A stretch of 64,000 nt of DNA from Flavobacteriales bacterium (GTDB lineage: Bacteria > Bacteroidota > Bacteroidia > Flavobacteriales_D > Sanyastnellaceae): the NCBI GenBank assembly GCA_027491075.1, contig JAIXWX010000022.1:186001-250000 (forward strand). The letters are read 5' to 3'. Of the stretch, positions 30,783 through 45,952 are shown one piece after another (position 1 is the stretch's first letter; every line of letters begins with the position of its first letter). Position numbers and translations under genes: made by a program. A model generated the notes under the pieces. That model had not been told where the DNA came from and made no database searches. It saw only the letters and a program-made list of their open reading frames with translations.

Positions 30783-33700
30783 TCACTCCTCCTTCACCAC
30801 CTTCACAAACTGTGGAACGGGGGTGGGAAGGCGCAAGATGTAACTTCCGGATGAAAGATGGGCCATGGAAATTGTCGTACGTGGCTCTAAAAGCGTCTGT
30901 AGATGAACCAACCTGCCTGAAAGATCTCTCACCTCTACCATGGAAATCTCATCCTTCATCATGTCGCTGGACAATTCGATGATGAGTTGATCTCGTGTTG
31001 GATTGGGATACACTTGTACTATTCCTGTCGTTATCTCGCGCTCTTCCGTACTTACTACACACTCCACATTAATGGTCTGAACACTTCCCTGACAATTAGT
31101 ACCGGTGGTCTCTACCATGGTCACTTCTCCTCCTGCTCCTCCGAATTGCACTTCGATGCTGTTTGTTCCACCTCCTGAAATCAATTGAGCTCCGCTTGGT
31201 ATCGTCCACAGATAGGTGCTCTGATCGTTGAATGGTACCGAAAATGTTGCAACACTATTGGCACAATCTAATGCGGTAGGTCCTTCGATAGGGGCATTTA
31301 ATGGAGCAATCGAAAACGCGGTGTACATGTATGTTGATTGCCCACATCCCATGTTGCTGGGTAAAAGTTCTATAGTGAATAAGTCATCATTCGGCAATAT
31401 ACTGATGGCATCTGATCCTTGTCCTGAAAGGATGGTAGCAGCTCCCTGTGGAATAATGGTCCACGTGTATACATCTGCATTCATTACATTGGAAATAGTA
31501 TATAGAAGCTCATCGCCCTCACAAAAATTCGCGGGCCCTTCGATGATTCCTGTTTGCGTGGGTAAAGGAATAATCGCTAGATCCAAGGCATTGGACATAT
31601 TCACACATCCGTTGTTGGTTACTTGAACCTGATACGATCCAGCGGTCGAAGCATTGTAAGTTGGAGCTATTTTATTCGGCAAAATTTCTCCATTTACATA
31701 CCACTGATAGGAGGAGCCAGCAGGTGCAGTAGCGGTCATTAAGGCGGTGCTTCCGGCACAGATTTCTAGATCTGGGGTCGTTATTATTGCTTCCGGCAAA
31801 GGAATCACCTCTACTTCAATTTCAGTAGTAAACACACATTCTGGCTCAGCTGTAACAGTCACTGAATAGATGCCCGCACTATTCACTTGAATAGACTCAC
31901 TTGTCTCTCCAGTATTCCATAAGAATGATTCTCCAACGGTGGCTGTGAGTGTGGTGGATCCTCCATCGCAGAATAAGGTTCCCTCTGAAGCGAAAATAGA
32001 AGATGCGGAAGGTCCAATTACGGTAACGAAGATAAAATTCGATACGGATCCTTCATCGCATCCAACTTGCTCTGCAAAGAAGAAGATCTTGTTATCTCCC
32101 ACGAACAAATCCGAAAGCGGAATTTCCCAAAGCAAATCGCCGGGCCCCGTTTGCGCTTCTGCCAGTGGAGCTCCATTGAGAAACGGAGTGTACTCTACTT
32201 CTTCTTGTGTGTTAAATATTTGAATGATGGCTACATCGTCTGTATAACAAACGGTAGAACCCAGTGTAGCCAGAGATAAATCCAAATCTCCATAAACAAA
32301 GGCATTGGCTGCCGCTCTGGGTCCCTCACATCCGTTGGATACAATTGATACGTAGTAGGTCGTAGTCCCCGTTAAATTATTAATGGAGTAAGTGGGGCCT
32401 GTTTGTCCGCTTATTGGATTACCTCCTGTGGGCGTTGTATACCAACGGTAGCTCGCTCCAGCGGGAGCACCCGATGCTTGGAATGTCACAATTCCACCTT
32501 CGCATCCAAAAACATCCGTCGTAATGGGAGCATCAGGAAATTCATTGATCACGACATTCACCGGTTGGGGCGGAGAAGTACAACCATTGACAGTAACTTC
32601 TAAAACATATTCTCCATCATTCACTCCAGGTTGTGGGTTATTGATGACGGGTGGATTTTGTAGCGTAGAGGTAAATCCATTGGGACCTGTCCACGCATAC
32701 GTAGCACCGGGAAAATCAAATGTGGTCAGAGCAATGTTGTTTTGTCCTTCGCAGAAGGGCGCCGGTCCAAATGCAACACTCTCATTGTTGAAGAGTGTTT
32801 GAATTTCACTTGCATTCAACGCGCGAGAATAAACGCGCACATGATCGATATCACCGCGGTAATCAATCGCTCCAAGACCATTGGATTGTCTTCCTATTTG
32901 CAAGTTGTTTCCGGTAACAGGAATGTTACCGGATTGGTTTAATGTTCCAGTAAGCACTCCATTCTGGAATATTCTTAACTGAGAACCATTGTAGGTACAA
33001 ACAATGTGATGCCATTGCAATAAAGGAACGTTGGTATTGCTGGTGAGAAAATTGCTACCATTGATTCTCCAACGTACTGGATTTTGTGGATTAGATGCGT
33101 TAAATCCATCCAAGGCCATGTACATTCCCGTTCCACCCCACTTGTTGAATAATGGCGTTTGATCACCAAACCAGGATTGCGTTTGTCGAACCCACATGCT
33201 AATGGTCACTTGATTGGTCAGCGCATTGATGGCAGCAGGATTTCCCGCGTCGATGTAAGCACCTGGTCCGATGTTGATCGCGCTGTTTTCATTGCCCAAT
33301 CGATCTGAGGTGTAGAAAGAATTTCCTCCTTGCACCGTTGCGTTAATTCCGTTGCCACTTTCGTCCAGCAGGTTGCCATCCATTTTATAAAACAAAATCA
33401 AATCATTGATTATATCTACTGGAGGATTCAAAGGATTAATCACTGTCGCTTGCACCACTGTTCGCGCGCTTTCACAACCATTGGCGTTGACCACAGAAAC
33501 ATAATACAGCGTCGTTTCAGTTAGAATTGGTGTAGTATATAGCGTGTTGATACCGCTTTGAAGTAAAGTACCCCCAGCAGGTTGATCAAACCAATTGAAC
33601 GTCGCTGACTGCACTGTACTAGAAGCTGAAAGATTCACAGCACCTTGATTGCATACAGAACCATTCGTAACCGAAGGAACATTCGGTAGAGAAAGCACCG

Positions 33701-36230
33701 TAAAATTGGAAGGAGCCGCAATGATGGTTTGACATCCATTGATTAAACTCGTAGCAACAAATTCAAAGCTCATGCCTGTTACGAGCGCGCCTGTTGAAAA
33801 CGTGAGCGTATCTCCCGTTCCATTTTGTGCATTGCCAATAAACGCTAATGATTGTGCATTTCTCAAGCGATATGAAACCCCTGGTTGCGAGTTTATAATC
33901 AAAATATTGGATTGAGAACCTTCACAAAAAGCACCTCCTTGAGAAGTGATGGAAAGCGCTTCATTTTGCTCCATCGTTAGCAACGCAATTTCCTCTGTGC
34001 TAAGACTTCTGTTATATACTCGAAGGTCATCCATAACCCCGTTATAATAACCATCTTGCGCCCAATTGCTCCGTCCGATATAGCATATAGTGCGAAGAAT
34101 ATTTACTGGAGCAGGATGCGTTCCTGATACCACTGCAACTCCATTTAAATATAGAGTACTTAATCCTCCCTGATGGGTGAATACCAAGTGAGTCCATTGA
34201 CCGATGGGAGCTGTTACACCAACGGGCGATGTGTGCACCGTTCCGGGAGTTGTGCCATTGTAAATTTGAACGGCAGGTCTTCCTACTGTTCCATTGGTGG
34301 CTGCTAGGAGTATGTTATTATTGTTCGGACCATTGCCAAAATCCAACACCCTACTCCACGTATTCCATGCCGTTGGGTTGATCCAAGCGGAGATAGAAAA
34401 GTCGCCGCCTGAGAAATAAACTCCATCGGGTGCATCAATAAAACCATTGGTTCCATTGAATCTTAGGGCTTGACCTACTTCATCAAATCGATTCAAAGCG
34501 GAAGTTACTCCAGTATTACTCACCCCGTTCAATCCGCTTCCACTGGCATCGTTGCTGTTTCCATTCATCGGATAATGCAGAATCAAACCGGTATTGAGCG
34601 AAACAGGAAGCGTTTGAATTTGTCCTACTTGAACAGGTGCAGGAAGAACATTTACAGTTGCGCTAAGAGAAGCGGAGCATGAATTCTCAGTTATGGCGAC
34701 CGTGTAGACGCCCTCGGCACCAAAGGTGATGTCGTTGATGATCGCTGGATTGGCACTGGAGGAAAAATTGTTGGGTCCTGTCCACGCATAACTAGCCCCG
34801 GGAATAGCGGCAATAGATAACGCTGCATCGGAATTAAAACAAGCAGTGATATTCGGACTGATGGGTTCAAGTTCAATAACTGGAAATCTTGTCGAGGAGA
34901 TACCGACATCGTTCCAGCGCCCCCCGCCCATCATAGCGAGATAGTCTTCGGAGTTGTTAAAATTGTTTGGCTCGCTTGTCGCCCAATTGGAATAGGCAAA
35001 AGGAGTTGAATTGTTCCAAACAAAAGTTCCTTCAGTAAGCTCATCCGACAAACCAAGCAGAGCGCCATTGTTGCCGAGATAATGCGCGATGTAGACATTT
35101 TCTGCGGCATTGGCGATAGTGGCTAACCGACCTCCATTGGCCGATGCGGTGCTATTGGCAGCAACCCATGCTTGTTGATTCAATCCTAGAAAAAGATTCT
35201 TTCCGTTGATCTTTCCAATATATTGAAACGCGCTAGTGGCTGGAATATCCCCCAATAGGCCTTGAATAGAAATATCTTCACTACTGGCGGAAGCAGCCCC
35301 GAGAGCAGTACTTACTACTCTCAATTTGTAACCTGTGCCCGAAGGAGTTCCATCGGGAATTGTGGCCGTAATGGCACCCGAGGAGACAGAGCTTACACGA
35401 GCGATATCCAATGGAAAAGCAAAACTGCCAGAGGCGTTCGACAACTGCAGCACAAATTCGTTCTCTGGAAACAAAAGGCCCGAGGCAGTGTAGTTTACTT
35501 CTACCTGACTGCCTGCGCAAAGAGAAGCAGTGCTCAAACCGGTAATTGCAACGGATGCCCCATTAACAGCTGCGAGCTGTGCGATTTCTGCTGCCGAGAG
35601 CACGCGATTATAAAAGCGAACATCATCGATCCTGCCGTTGAGCCAAGAGTTGTTGTTTTGATTTACAACATTTCCACCGATTCGGGTAGGGGTTGTATTA
35701 CTTCCCAAGGTGTAGTTTCCATTCACACTTCCAACCAAAGTACCGTTGAGGTATGCAGCGATACCCGTGGTGCTGGTGGTGATGGCGAGGTGCTGCCAAG
35801 TATTGGCAGGAGCTGTAATCATTACATCCAAAAAACCATTGGGATGAAAAATCGCGATTCTATTCGGGGCGGTATAAAAACCTGTTTCGAGAATGTTATC
35901 CTGCCCCACCAAACTCATACCGTTGCTTAAGGAGTTAAGGCTAAACCAATAAGACATGGTAAATGCTGTGCGTCCATTGAATAAAGAAGATGGGAAGCTC
36001 AGCATACCCGCTTCAATGGAACCATTAAAATATGCCGCCGAAGAAAGCAACATGTGTCGATTGCCTGTAGGAGTTACTCCTCCAGAGGACGCGGTAGCAT
36101 TGTTGCTGTTGCCAGATATATCGGTCCAGACGCCATCCAGAGGCAAGTGCGCAATGAGGCCATTGTTGAGTTGTGCCCACGAAGAAAATTGAAGAGCAAT
36201 GAAGCTCAAAAAGAGAATGTAATTTTTCAT
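30783..36230 (-). CDS. Giant T9SS-exported LamG / C-type lectin / Ig-like surface protein
   Basis: A 1815-aa predicted adhesin or cell-surface glycan-binding protein. After a signal peptide (ending SSWAQ, residue 20) come LamG/concanavalin-like domain 1 (about 25-215), an Ig-like segment, and a C-type-lectin-like domain (about 340-465, with WVAANSTASANGGRLATI and SNWATSEPNNFNNSEDY). LamG domain 2 (about 555-755) and LamG domain 3 (about 950-1155) follow. The three LamG units share FNGSIEAG/YIDAGN-type edges and a DDVRFYNRVLS-like ending. Residues 1160-1700 hold repeated PKD/Ig-like domains with TYYVSIVSNGCEGPR-type motifs. The end is a T9SS type A domain (VYPNPTRDQLIIELSS, SSGSYILRL). ATG 36230 is used; the GTG just before it is less likely. 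It lies downstream of the subtilase and hybrid regulator on the same strand. Confidence 0.87.
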   Translation of the reverse strand: MKNYILFLSFIALQFSSWAQLNNGLIAHLPLDGVWTDISGNSNNATASSGGVTPTGNRHMLLSSAAYFNGSIEAGMLSFPSSLFNGRTAFTMSYWFSLNSLSNGMSLVGQDNILETGFYTAPNRIAIFHPNGFLDVMITAPANTWQHLAITTSTTGIAAYLNGTLVGSVNGNYTLGSNTTPTRIGGNVVNQNNNSWLNGRIDDVRFYNRVLSAAEIAQLAAVNGASVAITGLSTASLCAGSQVEVNYTASGLLFPENEFVLQLSNASGSFAFPLDIARVSSVSSGAITATIPDGTPSGTGYKLRVVSTALGAASASSEDISIQGLLGDIPATSAFQYIGKINGKNLFLGLNQQAWVAANSTASANGGRLATIANAAENVYIAHYLGNNGALLGLSDELTEGTFVWNNSTPFAYSNWATSEPNNFNNSEDYLAMMGGGRWNDVGISSTRFPVIELEPISPNITACFNSDAALSIAAIPGASYAWTGPNNFSSSANPAIINDITFGAEGVYTVAITENSCSASLSATVNVLPAPVQVGQIQTLPVSLNTGLILHYPMNGNSNDASGSGLNGVSNTGVTSALNRFDEVGQALRFNGTNGFIDAPDGVYFSGGDFSISAWINPTAWNTWSRVLDFGNGPNNNNILLAATNGTVGRPAVQIYNGTTPGTVHTSPVGVTAPIGQWTHLVFTHQGGLSTLYLNGVAVVSGTHPAPVNILRTICYIGRSNWAQDGYYNGVMDDLRVYNRSLSTEEIALLTMEQNEALSITSQGGAFCEGSQSNILIINSQPGVSYRLRNAQSLAFIGNAQNGTGDTLTFSTGALVTGMSFEFVATSLINGCQTIIAAPSNFTVLSLPNVPSVTNGSVCNQGAVNLSASSTVQSATFNWFDQPAGGTLLQSGINTLYTTPILTETTLYYVSVVNANGCESARTVVQATVINPLNPPVDIINDLILFYKMDGNLLDESGNGINATVQGGNSFYTSDRLGNENSAINIGPGAYIDAGNPAAINALTNQVTISMWVRQTQSWFGDQTPLFNKWGGTGMYMALDGFNASNPQNPVRWRINGSNFLTSNTNVPLLQWHHIVCTYNGSQLRIFQNGVLTGTLNQSGNIPVTGNNLQIGRQSNGLGAIDYRGDIDHVRVYSRALNASEIQTLFNNESVAFGPAPFCEGQNNIALTTFDFPGATYAWTGPNGFTSTLQNPPVINNPQPGVNDGEYVLEVTVNGCTSPPQPVNVVINEFPDAPITTDVFGCEGGIVTFQASGAPAGASYRWYTTPTGGNPISGQTGPTYSINNLTGTTTYYVSIVSNGCEGPRAAANAFVYGDLDLSLATLGSTVCYTDDVAIIQIFNTQEEVEYTPFLNGAPLAEAQTGPGDLLWEIPLSDLFVGDNKIFFFAEQVGCDEGSVSNFIFVTVIGPSASSIFASEGTLFCDGGSTTLTATVGESFLWNTGETSESIQVNSAGIYSVTVTAEPECVFTTEIEVEVIPLPEAIITTPDLEICAGSTALMTATAPAGSSYQWYVNGEILPNKIAPTYNASTAGSYQVQVTNNGCVNMSNALDLAIIPLPTQTGIIEGPANFCEGDELLYTISNVMNADVYTWTIIPQGAATILSGQGSDAISILPNDDLFTIELLPSNMGCGQSTYMYTAFSIAPLNAPIEGPTALDCANSVATFSVPFNDQSTYLWTIPSGAQLISGGGTNSIEVQFGGAGGEVTMVETTGTNCQGSVQTINVECVVSTEEREITTGIVQVYPNPTRDQLIIELSSDMMKDEISMVEVRDLSGRLVHLQTLLEPRTTISMAHLSSGSYILRLPTPVPQFVKVVKEE

Positions 36231-36301
36231 CACTGTTCTGAATATTTAATCAGCCAAAATTCGGATCAAGTCATCCAATCGGCTGTAAATATCGTTGCAA
36301 A

Positions 36302-36317
36302 AACATGTACACATGTT
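36302..36317. promoter_or_regulatory. Palindrome AACATGT-AC-ACATGTT, candidate operator
   Basis: Perfect 7-bp inverted repeat with a 2-bp spacer, flanked further by TGCA on both sides. It lies between the stop of the hybrid regulator gene (36336) and the start of the adhesin gene (36230), where a promoter for the adhesin would be controlled. The binding protein is unknown; AraC-type regulators usually prefer direct repeats, so another factor is possible. Confidence 0.4.
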
Positions 36318-36335
36318 GCATAAAAAAGCTAAAAA

Positions 36336-38900
36336 TCATTGAAAATCAACATCCTCTCCGGGGCTCACTCCGAAATGTTCTTTATATGATTTTGAAAAAT
36401 AAGAAGGACTACTAAAACCTACCATGTAGGCAATTTCTTTGATGCTGTATTTTTTTTCTTGTAAAAAATCCCTGGACTTTTCTAATCGGGTTACTCGAAT
36501 AAAATGGCTGGTCGAATCCCCTGAAAGCGCCGTGATTTTTCTATGGAGCTGACTTCTGCTGATGGACAAAGCCTCGGCCAATCGTTCTGAATTGAAATCC
36601 TCCTCATCCAGATGACTTAGAATAATTGCCGTGGCTTTTTGAAGAAAAGGGTCTCGGAGAAGTAATTTATCATCAAGGGACTTGCTTTCGACGACAGAAG
36701 CTTTGAATCGATTTCGAAGCGCTTGAACATCCCCAAATATTCTATTGATTTGAGCCTGAAGTTCCAAGGGATCAAAAGGCTTTGCAATAAATGCAGCCGC
36801 GCCGCAGCGTAGGGCCTCTTGTTTTACCGCGTTCGAGTTCAGTGCAGAAAAAAGTACTATAGGAATATGCTGTAGCAATGAGTCCGCTTTTAGACGCTTG
36901 AGAAAATCCATTCCACTGTCGCCCATTAGCATGATGTCTGATAATACGATATCTGGAACGCGTTCGCTTAGAAGCTCCCATGCCTGTTCAGCATTGTGCC
37001 CCATCACTAAATCATATTCTTCGGCGAAAATCGACGCCACAAAGGAGGCAAGATCTGCATCGTCTTCCAAAATGAGAAGCAACGGTTTTTCTTCCACCTC
37101 TTTAGCTACTTCTATAGTTTTATATCGTGCAAGCGGTAAAGAAAAATCGATGCTGAATCCTGTAGTGACAGGAATGACATCCATGGTGCCGCCCGAGGCA
37201 AGTAACAACTCTCGAATCATGGCCAGTCCCAGCCCCGTTCCTCGCACATTCTTGGCATTGGATCCCCTAAAATAACGTTGAAAAAGTTGCTTTTGTTGAG
37301 CATGTTCTAGACCCTTTCCGTGATCCCTCACGTTAACTTTCAATCGCTCCGCTTCAATGGTCATGTGAACCTCAATAGCACATCCACTTCCAGCATATTT
37401 AATCGCATTGGATAGCAAATTATGCATCGCTGAAGCAAGGAGTTTCGAGGAGAACCACACATTGTTGCTTTGTTCTGGCAAATCCAGAATCAATCTTTGA
37501 TCATTGAGGTCGGCTAGCGGAAGAAAAGACGTGCAGATATCCTTTACCACATCTATCGGATTACCGAGTGAATATTCTGTTTGATACTTTCCTGCATCTA
37601 GCTTGGACACATTCAGTAGATCCGTTATCATACCTTCAAGACGATCTGCACTTTTCTCCATTAAATCCAACTGCCCCGTTAAGCGATGAATATCACCACT
37701 TTGTTTATACCATTTGACAGGACCAGTTATAAGCGTTACTGGAGTTCGAATATCATGAATAAGATTCTGAAGCAGTGTATTTTTTGCTTTTTCCAATTCC
37801 CTCTTCGCTTTTCTTTTCTGAAGAAAAAGTAGAAATATGAGAGAGATCATCGCGAAAAGCCCCACTCCGACCAGTACTGTAACCAACCAATTGGAGCGCA
37901 ACTGCTGAATTTCGCTCTCCTTCTTTTGCGTTTCAAACTGAAGTTGCAGCTTTGCGATTGATTCGTTTTTTTGTTGATCAAAAAGAAACTCTTTGGCTTC
38001 AATTTCTATCTTCTTGTAGAAAAGTGCTTGTCCTGTATCTCCTAATTTCTCGTACACGGCCGCCACGGTGGCCGCTATTTGTTGTGTATGAAAATGTCGC
38101 TGCAACGCCTGACTCTTCTTCAGCGCTCTCTGCATCATTTCAAGACCTTTTTCATTTTCGCCCTTTCCGACGAGCACATCTCCAAGATTGGTATATGCCG
38201 AAAGTAGAACTTTGTCGAATCCGTTTTTCTCTGAAAGTTCAATGGATTTTTGATAGAAATAAATTGCAGAGTCAGGGTTGTTCTGTCCAGCTTGGTAAAT
38301 TCCTCCAATTGAATTGTATAATGTTGCTCCTGCCTCATTGTTCTCAGGCAAATCCTTCTGTGCACTTAGAAGTATTTCGAGCGACTTTTGATAGTCTCCC
38401 TTTGAAAAATATATAGCTGAGATATTCGTAAGAATCATTGCGTAATGCTCTAATTCACCAGCTTCCTTTTTTAGAAAAGCAGATTTATTGAGGTATTCCA
38501 AAGCTTGATCTACCTCTCCCCTTTCATAAGCAATCATTCCCAAGCCATTGTATGGTTTGGCTGCCAAAGAAGTTTGGCCCTTGGCCTCTGCGAGCTGAAT
38601 ACTTTCTAAATAAAATTCAGAAGCCTTTTCAAGTTGAGATGTATTTTGAAAGAAGTCACCGATTTGAGCCAGTGCTTTTACCTGATAAATAACATTGCCT
38701 TGATTTCTTGCGAGTTTCAAAGCATCTTCGGCATAAATAAGTGCACTATCTCCTTCTTTTTGAAGCCACCTATTTGAGCGAGAAAGCAAAGAGTCAACGG
38801 TTGCTTCTTGTGCTCGTATAGCTTGAAATGATAAAATGAATAGCACAAAAAAAGCGCCTTTGAAAGACGCTTTTAAATATATGTGCTTGTTGTTGTTCAT
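36336..38900 (-). CDS. Hybrid two-component regulator: TPR sensor, histidine kinase, receiver, AraC HTH
   Basis: One-protein two-component system of 854 aa. An N-terminal signal or anchor (about 10-31) precedes an extracytoplasmic TPR sensor domain (about 45-300). Then come a transmembrane helix (about 343-365), HisKA with the phospho-accepting His in LIHDIRTPVTL (about 382), HATPase_c with NLLSNAIKYA, DHGKGL and GTGLGLAMI, a receiver with Asp in VLSDIML (about 655), and an AraC-type helix-turn-helix ending in FSSPSYFSKSYKEHFGVSPG. Hybrid regulators in Bacteroidota commonly control adjacent surface-protein genes. Its ATG (38900-38898) shares one base with the TGA of the upstream subtilase (TGATG), so the two are translationally coupled. 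It is a TPR-type rather than the glycan-sensing beta-propeller type. Confidence 0.92.
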   Translation of the reverse strand: MNNNKHIYLKASFKGAFFVLFILSFQAIRAQEATVDSLLSRSNRWLQKEGDSALIYAEDALKLARNQGNVIYQVKALAQIGDFFQNTSQLEKASEFYLESIQLAEAKGQTSLAAKPYNGLGMIAYERGEVDQALEYLNKSAFLKKEAGELEHYAMILTNISAIYFSKGDYQKSLEILLSAQKDLPENNEAGATLYNSIGGIYQAGQNNPDSAIYFYQKSIELSEKNGFDKVLLSAYTNLGDVLVGKGENEKGLEMMQRALKKSQALQRHFHTQQIAATVAAVYEKLGDTGQALFYKKIEIEAKEFLFDQQKNESIAKLQLQFETQKKESEIQQLRSNWLVTVLVGVGLFAMISLIFLLFLQKRKAKRELEKAKNTLLQNLIHDIRTPVTLITGPVKWYKQSGDIHRLTGQLDLMEKSADRLEGMITDLLNVSKLDAGKYQTEYSLGNPIDVVKDICTSFLPLADLNDQRLILDLPEQSNNVWFSSKLLASAMHNLLSNAIKYAGSGCAIEVHMTIEAERLKVNVRDHGKGLEHAQQKQLFQRYFRGSNAKNVRGTGLGLAMIRELLLASGGTMDVIPVTTGFSIDFSLPLARYKTIEVAKEVEEKPLLLILEDDADLASFVASIFAEEYDLVMGHNAEQAWELLSERVPDIVLSDIMLMGDSGMDFLKRLKADSLLQHIPIVLFSALNSNAVKQEALRCGAAAFIAKPFDPLELQAQINRIFGDVQALRNRFKASVVESKSLDDKLLLRDPFLQKATAIILSHLDEEDFNSERLAEALSISRSQLHRKITALSGDSTSHFIRVTRLEKSRDFLQEKKYSIKEIAYMVGFSSPSYFSKSYKEHFGVSPGEDVDFQ

Positions 38901-40438
38901 CAATACGTTTGAGCCAAAGATACAGCAGCGGATGCATTGATATTTCCAAAACCACGGTTACTTGTTGACGACGGGAAGAACTGAGAGGTTTGGGTCAAGA
39001 TTGTTCGTACTTGGCTATTTGTAAGTGAAGGTTTCACAGACCAAACCAAAGAAGCAATTCCTGCTGCTGTGGCAGTGGCTGCGCTGCTTCCACCGATGTA
39101 GTTCAAAGAAGTGCCCGACATGGGAAGGGAAATAGAGTTTCGATTGTCATCGCTGTTTCTTTCCATAATAATGGTGAAGTCTACTTCGCTACCATCGTGG
39201 CAATCGCTGCACGTATTGCTGCTTTCGTTTACTCCGGTTACCGCCACAGCATTGGCGTATGCTGCTGGATAAACGACTCCCCACCATGAGGTCCAACTGA
39301 AACTTGTGCCTGCTGCGGCCATTACGAGTTTGCCCATATTGTGCGCATAATTCAATCCGTCCAAAAGAACACTGCTACCAAACGGAGAACCTATTGACAT
39401 GCTAATCACTCTTACTGATGCTGTGTTTCCCATAGCTACCAGAGCATTTTTAGTCGCTGTTCTCTCGGATGATCCGTCCAATACTACATCATTGCAACAA
39501 CGTACAAAAAATAAATTCGATTCGTATGCCACCCCCGTTGCAGCAAATTGATTGTTGCGTGGACCAACGGCTAAACCGGACATAGAAGTGCCATGTGAGC
39601 ATGAAGTAAAGCCAGTTGTTCCCAAGGTGTATCCTACTGTTCTCGTACGCCCGACGTTTGAATCACCATTATTGAATTGACTATTCAATAAGCTTTGATT
39701 CGAACTTATTCCCGCATCTAGCACGGCTACTGTAATTCCCTGCCCTTGCGATATGTTCCATGCTGTAGGAATATTGTGTAAATTGAAATTCCAAGGCACA
39801 TAGCAATTTGGACTCGTCAGGGTATAGTCCGATGCATTCAAACCATAGGTAGAAGGACTGCAGCCGTTTGAAGAACGATCTTCCTCATCTGCTAACTTAA
39901 AATCGAGCGGCTCGATGTATCGTACGTTCTCTATGTTCATCAATTCTTGAATCACCAATCGATCGGTACACTTGATGGTGAGAATGGGTAATTGCGGATC
40001 GTCCTCGATAAGTAACTCCTCCCATCGCACGGAACGTCCTCTCGACTCAGAAGCTTTCCTAAGGATAATCTCGATCAATTCATCATGAACTTTTCTCCAA
40101 CGTTCTTCGCCCAATTGAATTTCATGAATAGTAGAAGAAATATCTCCCATTCCCGACAACTTATAGCCAATGGCCACAGATTGATCTCCATAATGAATGG
40201 CACTCCACAGAGCATGTGGAGAGGCCCATTCCCAGTGGAAGTCATGTTCACGAGAAAGAAAATCGATCAAGTGATTCTTTACATTATCCTCGGATAATAT
40301 CGTTTCAGGAAGAGTGACTTGTTGGGTTTTGTAAGTGATCACATTACCTGTGGCTGTGTCTTTCACCTCGTTCTCTTCTTTTTTACAGCCGGCGACTGCG
40401 AGTAAAAATGCCGTTACCAAAAACAGTTTTGTTTTCAT
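38900..40438 (-). CDS. S8 subtilisin-like protease, surface lipoprotein
   Basis: A 512-aa serine peptidase. The signal ends in the lipobox LAVAGC (Cys18). The following KKEEN is Lys plus acidic, like the Bacteroidota lipoprotein export signal, so the enzyme is probably exposed on the cell surface. The catalytic triad is visible: Asp in VAVLDAGIS, His in SCSHGTSMSGLAVG, Ser in GGSSAATATAAGIASLVW. About 180 residues before the first catalytic motif form a prodomain. There is no T9SS domain. The stop overlaps the start of the hybrid regulator, and 40466-40473 holds a TATTTTCG box. Co-expression with a sensor suggests that the protease and regulator serve one response, perhaps sensing or processing surface proteins; that is inference. 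Confidence 0.88.
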   Translation of the reverse strand: MKTKLFLVTAFLLAVAGCKKEENEVKDTATGNVITYKTQQVTLPETILSEDNVKNHLIDFLSREHDFHWEWASPHALWSAIHYGDQSVAIGYKLSGMGDISSTIHEIQLGEERWRKVHDELIEIILRKASESRGRSVRWEELLIEDDPQLPILTIKCTDRLVIQELMNIENVRYIEPLDFKLADEEDRSSNGCSPSTYGLNASDYTLTSPNCYVPWNFNLHNIPTAWNISQGQGITVAVLDAGISSNQSLLNSQFNNGDSNVGRTRTVGYTLGTTGFTSCSHGTSMSGLAVGPRNNQFAATGVAYESNLFFVRCCNDVVLDGSSERTATKNALVAMGNTASVRVISMSIGSPFGSSVLLDGLNYAHNMGKLVMAAAGTSFSWTSWWGVVYPAAYANAVAVTGVNESSNTCSDCHDGSEVDFTIIMERNSDDNRNSISLPMSGTSLNYIGGSSAATATAAGIASLVWSVKPSLTNSQVRTILTQTSQFFPSSTSNRGFGNINASAAVSLAQTY

Positions 40439-40534: not shown

Positions 40535-40801
40535 CTATCCACGGGATTTGAAAGGAGCTATTAAATGCTCCACTCGTTCAATGATATGTTCACATTTTAC
40601 GATAACCTTTTCGCCCTCGGCAGTCACTTTAATAGGGAGCGATTTACGATCGAAAATGGTTACTCCAAGACGATCTTCAAATGTTTTTATCTGTTGACTT
40701 ACCGTGCTTTGATCTGCGCCGCATTCTCTGGCAGCTTCAGAAAAGCTACCAGTTTTAGCTACAGAAATGACATATTGCATTTGACGCAAGGTAACAATCA
40801 T
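40535..40801 (-). CDS. Stand-alone LysR-type DNA-binding domain protein
   Basis: An 88-aa protein that consists only of a LysR-family winged helix-turn-helix: LRQMQYVISVAKTGSFSEAA, then CGADQSTVSQQIKTFEDRLG, then FDRKSLPIKVTAEGEKVI. The linker helix follows and the protein ends. The effector-binding domain of about 200 residues is absent, and the following 95 bp before the next gene cannot encode it. The sequence resembles the OxyR branch. It has its own -7 box (TATCTTTG) 20 nt upstream and no internal damage, so it may be a functional small regulator rather than debris. A recent truncation remains possible. Confidence 0.75.
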   Translation of the reverse strand: MIVTLRQMQYVISVAKTGSFSEAARECGADQSTVSQQIKTFEDRLGVTIFDRKSLPIKVTAEGEKVIVKCEHIIERVEHLIAPFKSRG

Positions 40802-43960: not shown

Positions 43961-44050
43961 GCATTCTAAATGAACAAGTTAGACCCTGTTTTTTTCACAA
44001 TATGTGTTAATTTTTGAACTCTTAAAGGAGCCTGGATCAATCAAACTTTG

Positions 44051-45952
44051 ATGGACACCGATGGTTTTGAAAATCTCACGAAAAACGGGCTAAATTTGTT
44101 CAGTCATATGATAGATAAAAATGATTTTCTGGGTAGAATAATCCATGAGCTTGAAACCTCCTTCAAGAGCAATCAGTTTAAGGACTTAGAAGCCCCAATT
44201 GTAGAGCTCAAAGACCTTTCTTCTGGATCTGAATGGGTTTCACTAAAACAAACTATTTGCGCCTTTCTCAACACACAGGGGGGATATGTGATTTGTGGTA
44301 TAAGAGAACGTCATAAGCAATATAGTTTTCCTGGCTTCGATAGAAATAATGAAGGAAAAATCATAGAACTGAGAAATAAATTTTTCACAAATGATAATGA
44401 CGTACTACTTGACTTATCAGAGAATATAGATTTTGAATATCGGACAATCTTAGATAAAACCATTGCGGTGATAACTGTTCGTCCAATAAGTGAGGATTTA
44501 AAGTTTTTGAAATTTGACAATGTTTATTACGAGCGTATATTAACCCAAGATAAAAAAATACCTTCGGCTAAAATTACTCAACATCGAGAGTATAAAACCG
44601 AGTTGGAGTATTCAAAAGAGATCAGTATTGTTAAAAATGCGACACTAGAACATTTAGACATTGATAAAATCAACCAATTTATTATTAAGGTCAATACGAC
44701 AGGAAAAAAAGAGACCGTTAAAAAAGACCTTCGCGATGCGGCCGATTTCTTAAGAAGACGTTACTGTGTTAATGCAGAAGGTGCAGTGACCGTTCTCGGG
44801 TTATTACTTTTTGGAAAAGAGCCTTTTCAGCATCTTGAATATCGGGCCGAGGTAGATTGCTATTTTGAAACAGGTAACGAGATTGGACGAGACAAGAGAA
44901 TTTCTCAAAACGATGTGATGAACTTAATGGATGACGCCTTCTCTTTTGTTTGGGGTCACATAAAGGTGGGTAGAAGCTACGTAGGCGGTGGAAGAAGCGA
45001 GCCAGAATTTCCAGAAAAATTAGTTCGAGAGGTAATCAATAATGCATTTGCGCATAGAGATTACGTTGCTAATAAATTTATTACTATTAAGATAAACCCT
45101 GGAGAAAGTATTGAAATTAAAAATCCTGGAGGTTTTAAGCAAAAGATGCTAATAACTGACACTACTACGGATATTGAGATAAGAAGAGTCATTTCAGGGG
45201 TGCCAGAAACAAAAAACCCAAAGCTTGCCAATGTATTAAAGGCATTTGACAAAATTGAGAGTCAAGGAATTGGCATGGCTACGCTTGTTAGTGTTTGCCT
45301 TGAAAATCAAATAGATGTGCCTTACTTTGACTTATCTGTTCCAGATACTATTTCTTTAGTTATACCATCTGGGAAGCTTATAGACGATGAAACACAAATG
45401 TGGCTGAACTCATTCTATGGATATCTTCAGAAACTCCTAAATGGACGAATGACCAGAGAGCATGAATTGGTTTTGGCTTACTTGCTCAAATCAGAGCGAC
45501 TAAATCAAAGACGACTCTACACCATACTGCTAAGTCCAAGTAACAATCACTTCGATGTACTTTCTGATCTAAAAAAAGCGGACCTTATTATGGAGCAGCA
45601 GCCAGCCAGTTCAGATCAAACGCCAGTTTACATTTTGAGAAAAGAGCTAACAATCGAGGATTTCATTTTACAAATCGAAAATCTATCAGGAAAATCTTTA
45701 GCAGACTATGAAGATACCTATAGGAGAGTTTTGAATATAATATATAGATATAATCGCTACAACAATCAGTCTATAAAACCAAACGTAATAACACCCGAAT
45801 TATATTCTCAACTTCACGGTAAGGAAATTGAACCAACTAAGTACGAAAGTTTAGGGCGTAAAGTGAGAAAGATTTGTGGCGAACTTTTGAAGGCTGACAT
45901 ACTTTCAAAAAAAGAGGATAAGTCTTACGAAATCAGAGGAGCAAGAGATTAA
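44051..45952 (+). CDS. AlbA_2/Schlafen-type domain protein with ATP-binding domain
   Basis: A 633-aa protein of the group annotated as AlbA_2 (Schlafen) ATP-dependent or transcriptional regulator proteins. The N-terminal AlbA_2 domain (about 45-180) shows FLNTQGGYVICGIRE, the conserved Asn and glycine strand of the fold. A GHKL-like ATPase domain follows (about 215-440), with EKLVREVINNAFAHRDY, SIEIKNPGGF and ESQGIGM. The last 200 residues are charged and probably include winged helices. Proteins of this build are frequent in accessory and defence islands, but many have unknown roles, and no toxin or nuclease partner is adjacent. Codon use is visibly more AT-rich than in neighbouring genes, suggesting transfer. 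ATG 44051 is chosen over the TTG next to it. Confidence 0.75.
   Translation: MDTDGFENLTKNGLNLFSHMIDKNDFLGRIIHELETSFKSNQFKDLEAPIVELKDLSSGSEWVSLKQTICAFLNTQGGYVICGIRERHKQYSFPGFDRNNEGKIIELRNKFFTNDNDVLLDLSENIDFEYRTILDKTIAVITVRPISEDLKFLKFDNVYYERILTQDKKIPSAKITQHREYKTELEYSKEISIVKNATLEHLDIDKINQFIIKVNTTGKKETVKKDLRDAADFLRRRYCVNAEGAVTVLGLLLFGKEPFQHLEYRAEVDCYFETGNEIGRDKRISQNDVMNLMDDAFSFVWGHIKVGRSYVGGGRSEPEFPEKLVREVINNAFAHRDYVANKFITIKINPGESIEIKNPGGFKQKMLITDTTTDIEIRRVISGVPETKNPKLANVLKAFDKIESQGIGMATLVSVCLENQIDVPYFDLSVPDTISLVIPSGKLIDDETQMWLNSFYGYLQKLLNGRMTREHELVLAYLLKSERLNQRRLYTILLSPSNNHFDVLSDLKKADLIMEQQPASSDQTPVYILRKELTIEDFILQIENLSGKSLADYEDTYRRVLNIIYRYNRYNNQSIKPNVITPELYSQLHGKEIEPTKYESLGRKVRKICGELLKADILSKKEDKSYEIRGARD

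Follow-up and report, generated by a model that had tools for sequence, protein, structure and literature searches.

The window analysed here is the whole 64,000-nucleotide stretch of contig JAIXWX010000022.1. Three genes on its minus strand were described in the first-pass annotation as subtilase, hybrid kinase and adhesin, and all three reading frames are open at the coordinates below, in that order. Beyond that annotation a direct repeat with a 21-bp period (36294-36320), a -7-like element (36255-36262) and an ORF encoding only a LysR-type HTH (40535-40801) were located. The genes and elements of the locus were as follows.

38900..40438, minus strand: lipoprotein subtilase (S8), assigned with Pfam; read as a neighbour outside the conserved unit
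36336..38900, minus strand: TPR-sensor hybrid histidine kinase with receiver and AraC-type output (HTCS architecture), predicted regulator; assigned from Pfam, hydropathy and the overlap with the subtilase stop
36294..36320, minus strand: direct repeat TGCAAC-N15-TGCAAC, predicted operator with two half-sites at a 21-bp period; sole exact match in the genome, conserved behind 16 kinases
36255..36262, minus strand: GAATTTTG, predicted as a -7 promoter element; differs from TAnnTTTG at one position and begins 58 bp from where the repeat starts
30783..36230, minus strand: T9SS surface protein, predicted target; assigned with Pfam, with homologues behind kinase homologues in genomes G025, G050, G116 and G309

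The subtilase carries a lipobox-like VAGC and a Peptidase_S8 domain (Pfam, 2.6e-30). Its annotated TGATG overlap with the kinase gene was confirmed and reads TTGATG in the sequence, the subtilase stop (TGA, 38902-38900) and the kinase ATG sharing one base at 38900. Subtilase and kinase may share one transcript through this overlap.

Pfam placed TPRs, HisKA, HATPase_c, Response_reg and HTH_18/AraC domains in the single kinase chain. Hydropathy analysis gave one hydrophobic segment at the N-terminus and one, a TM segment, just before HisKA, and the TPRs are therefore predicted to be periplasmic. Both segments were present in 14 of the 18 kinases checked; at the threshold used, the other four showed just the second. 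H383, the acidic residues of the receiver and K708 were conserved in the kinase alignment. Sensor, TM segment, HisKA, HATPase, receiver and AraC-type HTH are thus combined as in an HTCS. The usual, though not universal, sensor of HTCS is of the COG3292 type; no such periplasmic glycan sensor was found in the kinase, for which Pfam returned TPRs and no beta-propeller sensor.

Laminin_G_3 (three copies), Lectin_C, Ig_7 (three), PKD_6 (two) and Por_Secre_tail domains were identified by Pfam over 30783-36233. The most likely start of the adhesin is the ATG at 36230, which matches the annotated length of 1815 aa. A hydrophobic N-terminus together with the Por_Secre_tail (1.3e-09, residues 1741-1802) marks the protein as T9SS cargo, and its LamG, lectin, Ig and PKD domains suggest a role in adhesion.

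The kinase has as neighbours the subtilase, the T9SS adhesin, SelO and a beta-lactamase-fold protein (Pfam). Neither a SusC/SusD pair nor glycan enzymes lie beside it, so the locus does not qualify as a polysaccharide utilization locus. No plasmid copies were detected at megablast sensitivity. The beta-lactamase-fold protein (PF00144; 40844-42145, minus strand), encoded upstream of the subtilase, has a T9SS Por_Secre_tail and is a predicted secreted serine hydrolase. Between this gene and the subtilase sits the 88-aa ORF at 40535-40801 (minus strand), with a LysR-family HTH (HTH_1, 1.2e-19) and no effector domain, either a truncated gene or a stand-alone HTH. The product of the gene at 44048-45952 (plus strand) combines AlbA_2/Schlafen and RecG-type HATPase_c_4 domains (Pfam), and the gene falls in the 2-kb stretch with the lowest GC content of the window (0.36).

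Kinase-adhesin pairs and the place of the subtilase

Searches with the single kinase returned mostly distant HTCS. A five-row kinase profile performed better; searched against 399 genomes of the order it gave strong matches in 50, and the downstream regions of these matches were fetched. The G025 genome, from another family, contains a kinase orthologue of about 32-33% identity over nearly the full length, with an unrelated T9SS protein encoded before it and, after it, a tandem of two adhesins homologous to that of the window. Homologous targets were also found in G116 (about 46% over residues 21-1592), G309 and G050; in the last of these the draft sequence has an interrupted reading frame. 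At E<=1e-100, homologues of the adhesin turned up in 5/399 genomes, each with one beside such a kinase, as counted from the best candidates scored per genome and with the fragment G377:C40 outside the count.

Wherever the next gene behind a kinase with the TGCAAC repeat could be read, its product was a T9SS-type surface protein. The targets in G071 and G129 have GBD_T9SS_assoc repeats with a Por_Secre_tail, and that in G034 has PKD_4/HYR/CHU_C domains with a PorP/SprF-OmpA partner (Pfam). Those in G113, G135, G101 and G304, and those in G280 and G187, were assigned to the GBD or PKD/HYR/CHU_C types only from the resemblance visible at their ends, and in G008 and G397 the target genes were masked by runs of N.

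A quick tree of the kinase cores grouped 11 repeat-bearing kinases, including that of the window on a long branch, next to two kinases with divergent adhesins. The PorP/SprF-type group and the G008 kinase fell elsewhere, which puts repeat-bearing kinases in three places. From this grouping the adhesin-type pair is probably one lineage and the TGCAAC half-site appears more widely shared, being on this tree not exclusive to one kinase clade. The patchy distribution, with upstream neighbours that vary, is consistent with horizontal movement or with repeated loss.

Subtilase orthologues were found at 66% identity in a genome of the same genus and at about 36-55% within the family. The same-genus genome, G002, shows the window's convergent arrangement of subtilase and SelO, but there the two genes abut, with no kinase or adhesin in between. 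No kinase homologue was found near the subtilase orthologues in the stretches, some of them short, that were fetched from nine genomes. Conversely, tblastn against about 60 HTCS loci gave no subtilase homologue beside any kinase other than that of the window. Judged from these genomes, the subtilase is a lineage-specific neighbour and not a conserved component.

The first-pass annotation had proposed that protease and kinase together control the adhesin. The kinase-adhesin half of that proposal held, with homologous pairs in other families of the order and a conserved repeat and promoter between the genes; the protease half did not, as the subtilase fails to co-occur with kinase or adhesin in relatives. 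Sensing of contact or proteolysis by a protease-kinase pair, as was suggested, found no support here. A three-gene system, in which the surface subtilase makes or removes the kinase signal, the kinase controls the adhesin and a single operon runs from the subtilase onwards, would suit the TGATG overlap and the common strand of all three genes. It is nevertheless very unlikely, given the subtilase orthologues that occur in the genus and family with neither kinase nor adhesin alongside, the lack of a subtilase homologue at any other kinase locus of the set and the adhesin's own predicted promoter.

Direct repeat and promoter geometry

The 102-bp gap between kinase and adhesin contains TGCAAC-ATGTGTACATGTTTT-TGCAAC at 36294-36320 on the minus strand, a direct repeat at about 21-bp distance before the target gene, as at HTCS sites. 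The same spaced repeat precedes each of the two G025 adhesins. Closeness of kinase and adhesin could in principle be coincidental if the kinase were a glycan-type HTCS of the ordinary kind whose targets lie elsewhere: Bacteroidota have numerous HTCS, and T9SS proteins are common enough to be adjacent by chance. This has only a minimal probability, since homologous kinase-adhesin pairs occur in several families and the complete 3.02-Mb genome sequence has a single exact TGCAAC-N15-TGCAAC match, the one preceding the adhesin.

All 16 best-scoring kinases were followed by the repeat with 0-1 mismatches of 12, at 5-51 bp past the stop codon; these kinases are not phylogenetically independent, several being close relatives with one genus giving five, and several of the genomes are drafts. 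Two genomes had served to define the motif and two others had shown it while their loci were being read, which leaves the remaining 12 as the cleaner test. Among 45 other HTCS loci none had the repeat with 0-1 mismatches and two had it with 2 mismatches. The period of 21 stood out among periods 12-35, with z 13.2 in the 16 kinases and z 7.1 in the 45 other HTCS loci, which have different half-site sequences.

TAnnTTTG (0-1 mismatch), the Bacteroides -7 consensus (PMC4747536), starts 58 bp after the repeat start in 14 of the 15 promoters that could be read and 59 bp after it in the remaining one, with the likely ATG some 20-30 bp past the -7 element. The hexamer repeat alone matched in 274/399 genomes, many of these matches presumably coding. 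It was therefore too noisy as a marker, and the -7 element was added to the pattern. The composite of repeat and TTTG gave 26 sites in the 399 genomes against 1 for the reversed pattern. Of the 26, nine immediately follow an HTCS gene and one more is situated before the second adhesin of G025; for the remaining 16 no HTCS homologue was present in the stretch examined, and they are probably chance or coding matches. At the level of sequence, comparison of the loci establishes the gene pairing, the repeat, its 21-bp period and its fixed distance to the promoter element.

Kinase and adhesin are divergently arranged in the second G309 copy (G309b) and in G377. The intergenic region that they share has a less well matched repeat (2 of 12 mismatches), oriented as the adhesin. 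The repeat thus goes with the divergent adhesin, which would not be expected of a site tied to the 3' end of the kinase gene. A terminator was considered and rejected for the repeat, which is direct and not inverted, keeps a fixed distance to the promoter element and precedes the adhesin in the divergent loci. In the divergent adhesin promoters, upstream of the kinase at loci L126 and L131, the recognisable repeat lies one period (21 bp) further from the best -7 candidate (TAGCTTTG, at +79), and this shift may reflect a third half-site.

Activation is favoured because the fixed distance between site and promoter suits an activator that contacts RNA polymerase around the -33 region. Counting against the proposed kinase-adhesin regulation as a whole, the -7 box of the window has one mismatch, and the divergent cases combine 2 of 12 mismatches with a -7 candidate 21 bp further away. 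The repeat could instead be the site of another regulator, or the kinase could be a repressor, the kinase adjacency then being secondary. That is unlikely. The TGCAAC half-site does occur behind kinases from three places in the tree, and binding of the kinase to the repeat is a prediction from sequence; but the repeat was found beside HTCS genes of the set, its 21-bp period is that of published HTCS sites, and the same period and geometry recur at other HTCS whose half-sites differ. A repressor in particular is fitted less well than an activator by a fixed distance just upstream of the -33 region.

Proposed regulation and relation to known systems

The locus is best explained by an HTCS-type kinase that is very probably a local activator, predicted to be dedicated to one T9SS adhesin, with the subtilase outside the unit. 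We infer that the kinase binds the repeat, that it activates rather than represses and that its signal passes through a phosphorelay. The kinase would be a one-protein regulator comprising signal peptide, periplasmic TPR sensor, one TM helix, histidine kinase, receiver and AraC-type DNA-binding domain. Once activated it would bind, presumably as a dimer, the two TGCAAC half-sites 21 bp apart just behind its own gene. The bound kinase would then activate the promoter in which the starts of repeat and -7 element are 58 bp apart, and thereby turn on a single surface protein exported by T9SS, at this locus the LamG/lectin/Ig adhesin.

HTCS regulators have been described chiefly as sensors of glycans that drive polysaccharide-utilization loci. 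The predicted sites of Bacteroides HTCS are direct repeats with a mean distance of 21 bp, read as a dimer on one DNA face, and 16-bp half-sites with a 5-bp spacer were reported for HTCS_Man (PMC3878776). Like the kinase described here, Bacteroides HTCS such as HTCS_Man and HTCS_Hep combine periplasmic sensor, TM, histidine kinase, receiver and AraC-type HTH in one protein, and they share with it the direct-repeat site of that spacing before neighbouring target genes (PMC3878776). They differ in the sensor, which here consists of TPRs and not the usual COG3292 domain, and in the target, here a T9SS surface protein in a unit without SusC/SusD or glycan-degrading genes.

T9SS surface proteins with a Por_Secre_tail or CHU_C domain, including SprB-type adhesins, resemble the adhesin in their C-terminal sorting domain and Ig/PKD/LamG repeats. 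The PorP/SprF partner of SprB-type adhesins also occurs in one subgroup of the targets. Unlike SprB-type proteins, the adhesin of the window has no adjacent PorP/SprF partner gene, and a role in adhesion or gliding is putative for it. PorX/PorY is likewise a case of two-component control connected with T9SS; however, it acts on secretion-machinery genes via a response regulator and a sigma factor, whereas here a hybrid AraC-type protein pairs with a single cargo gene. An incomplete survey of the open-access literature turned up no described case of a T9SS adhesin under HTCS control.

HTCS architecture and operator logic are tied at this locus to giant T9SS surface proteins and a TPR sensor, and the kinase-adhesin pairing offers a testable handle on how such bacteria pick which surface protein to display. 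It is also conceivable, though less likely than not, that the loci belong to a family of cassettes within the order, each with a TPR-sensing HTCS, its operator and one exchangeable T9SS cargo to which the HTCS is dedicated, and each moved between genomes as a unit. The cargo would then be a LamG/lectin adhesin, a GBD-repeat protein or a PKD/HYR-CHU_C protein with its PorP/SprF partner, and the TPRs might respond not to a glycan but to the condition of the exported protein or of the export process.

The rule of half-sites 21 bp apart with a -7 element at +58 also applies in some HTCS loci that were not used to find it, and could therefore help to assign target genes to orphan HTCS from sequence. 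Scored as a repeat of at least 11 of 16 plus a -7 element at the same geometry, 9-10 of 43 held-out HTCS loci carried the combination; the control at other periods gave a mean of 0.24 and a maximum of 3. HTCS L127 (G280b), L133 (G187b), L130 (G216) and L138 (G153) have 21-bp repeats with a -7-like box at +58, and the half-sites of HTCS of this type differ (e.g. TGTTACAAATAGTATA, TTTACAATAGTGCAT and TGCAATTxCAGTCC), suggesting that the 21-bp repeat with a -7 element at +58 is a more general HTCS promoter rule.
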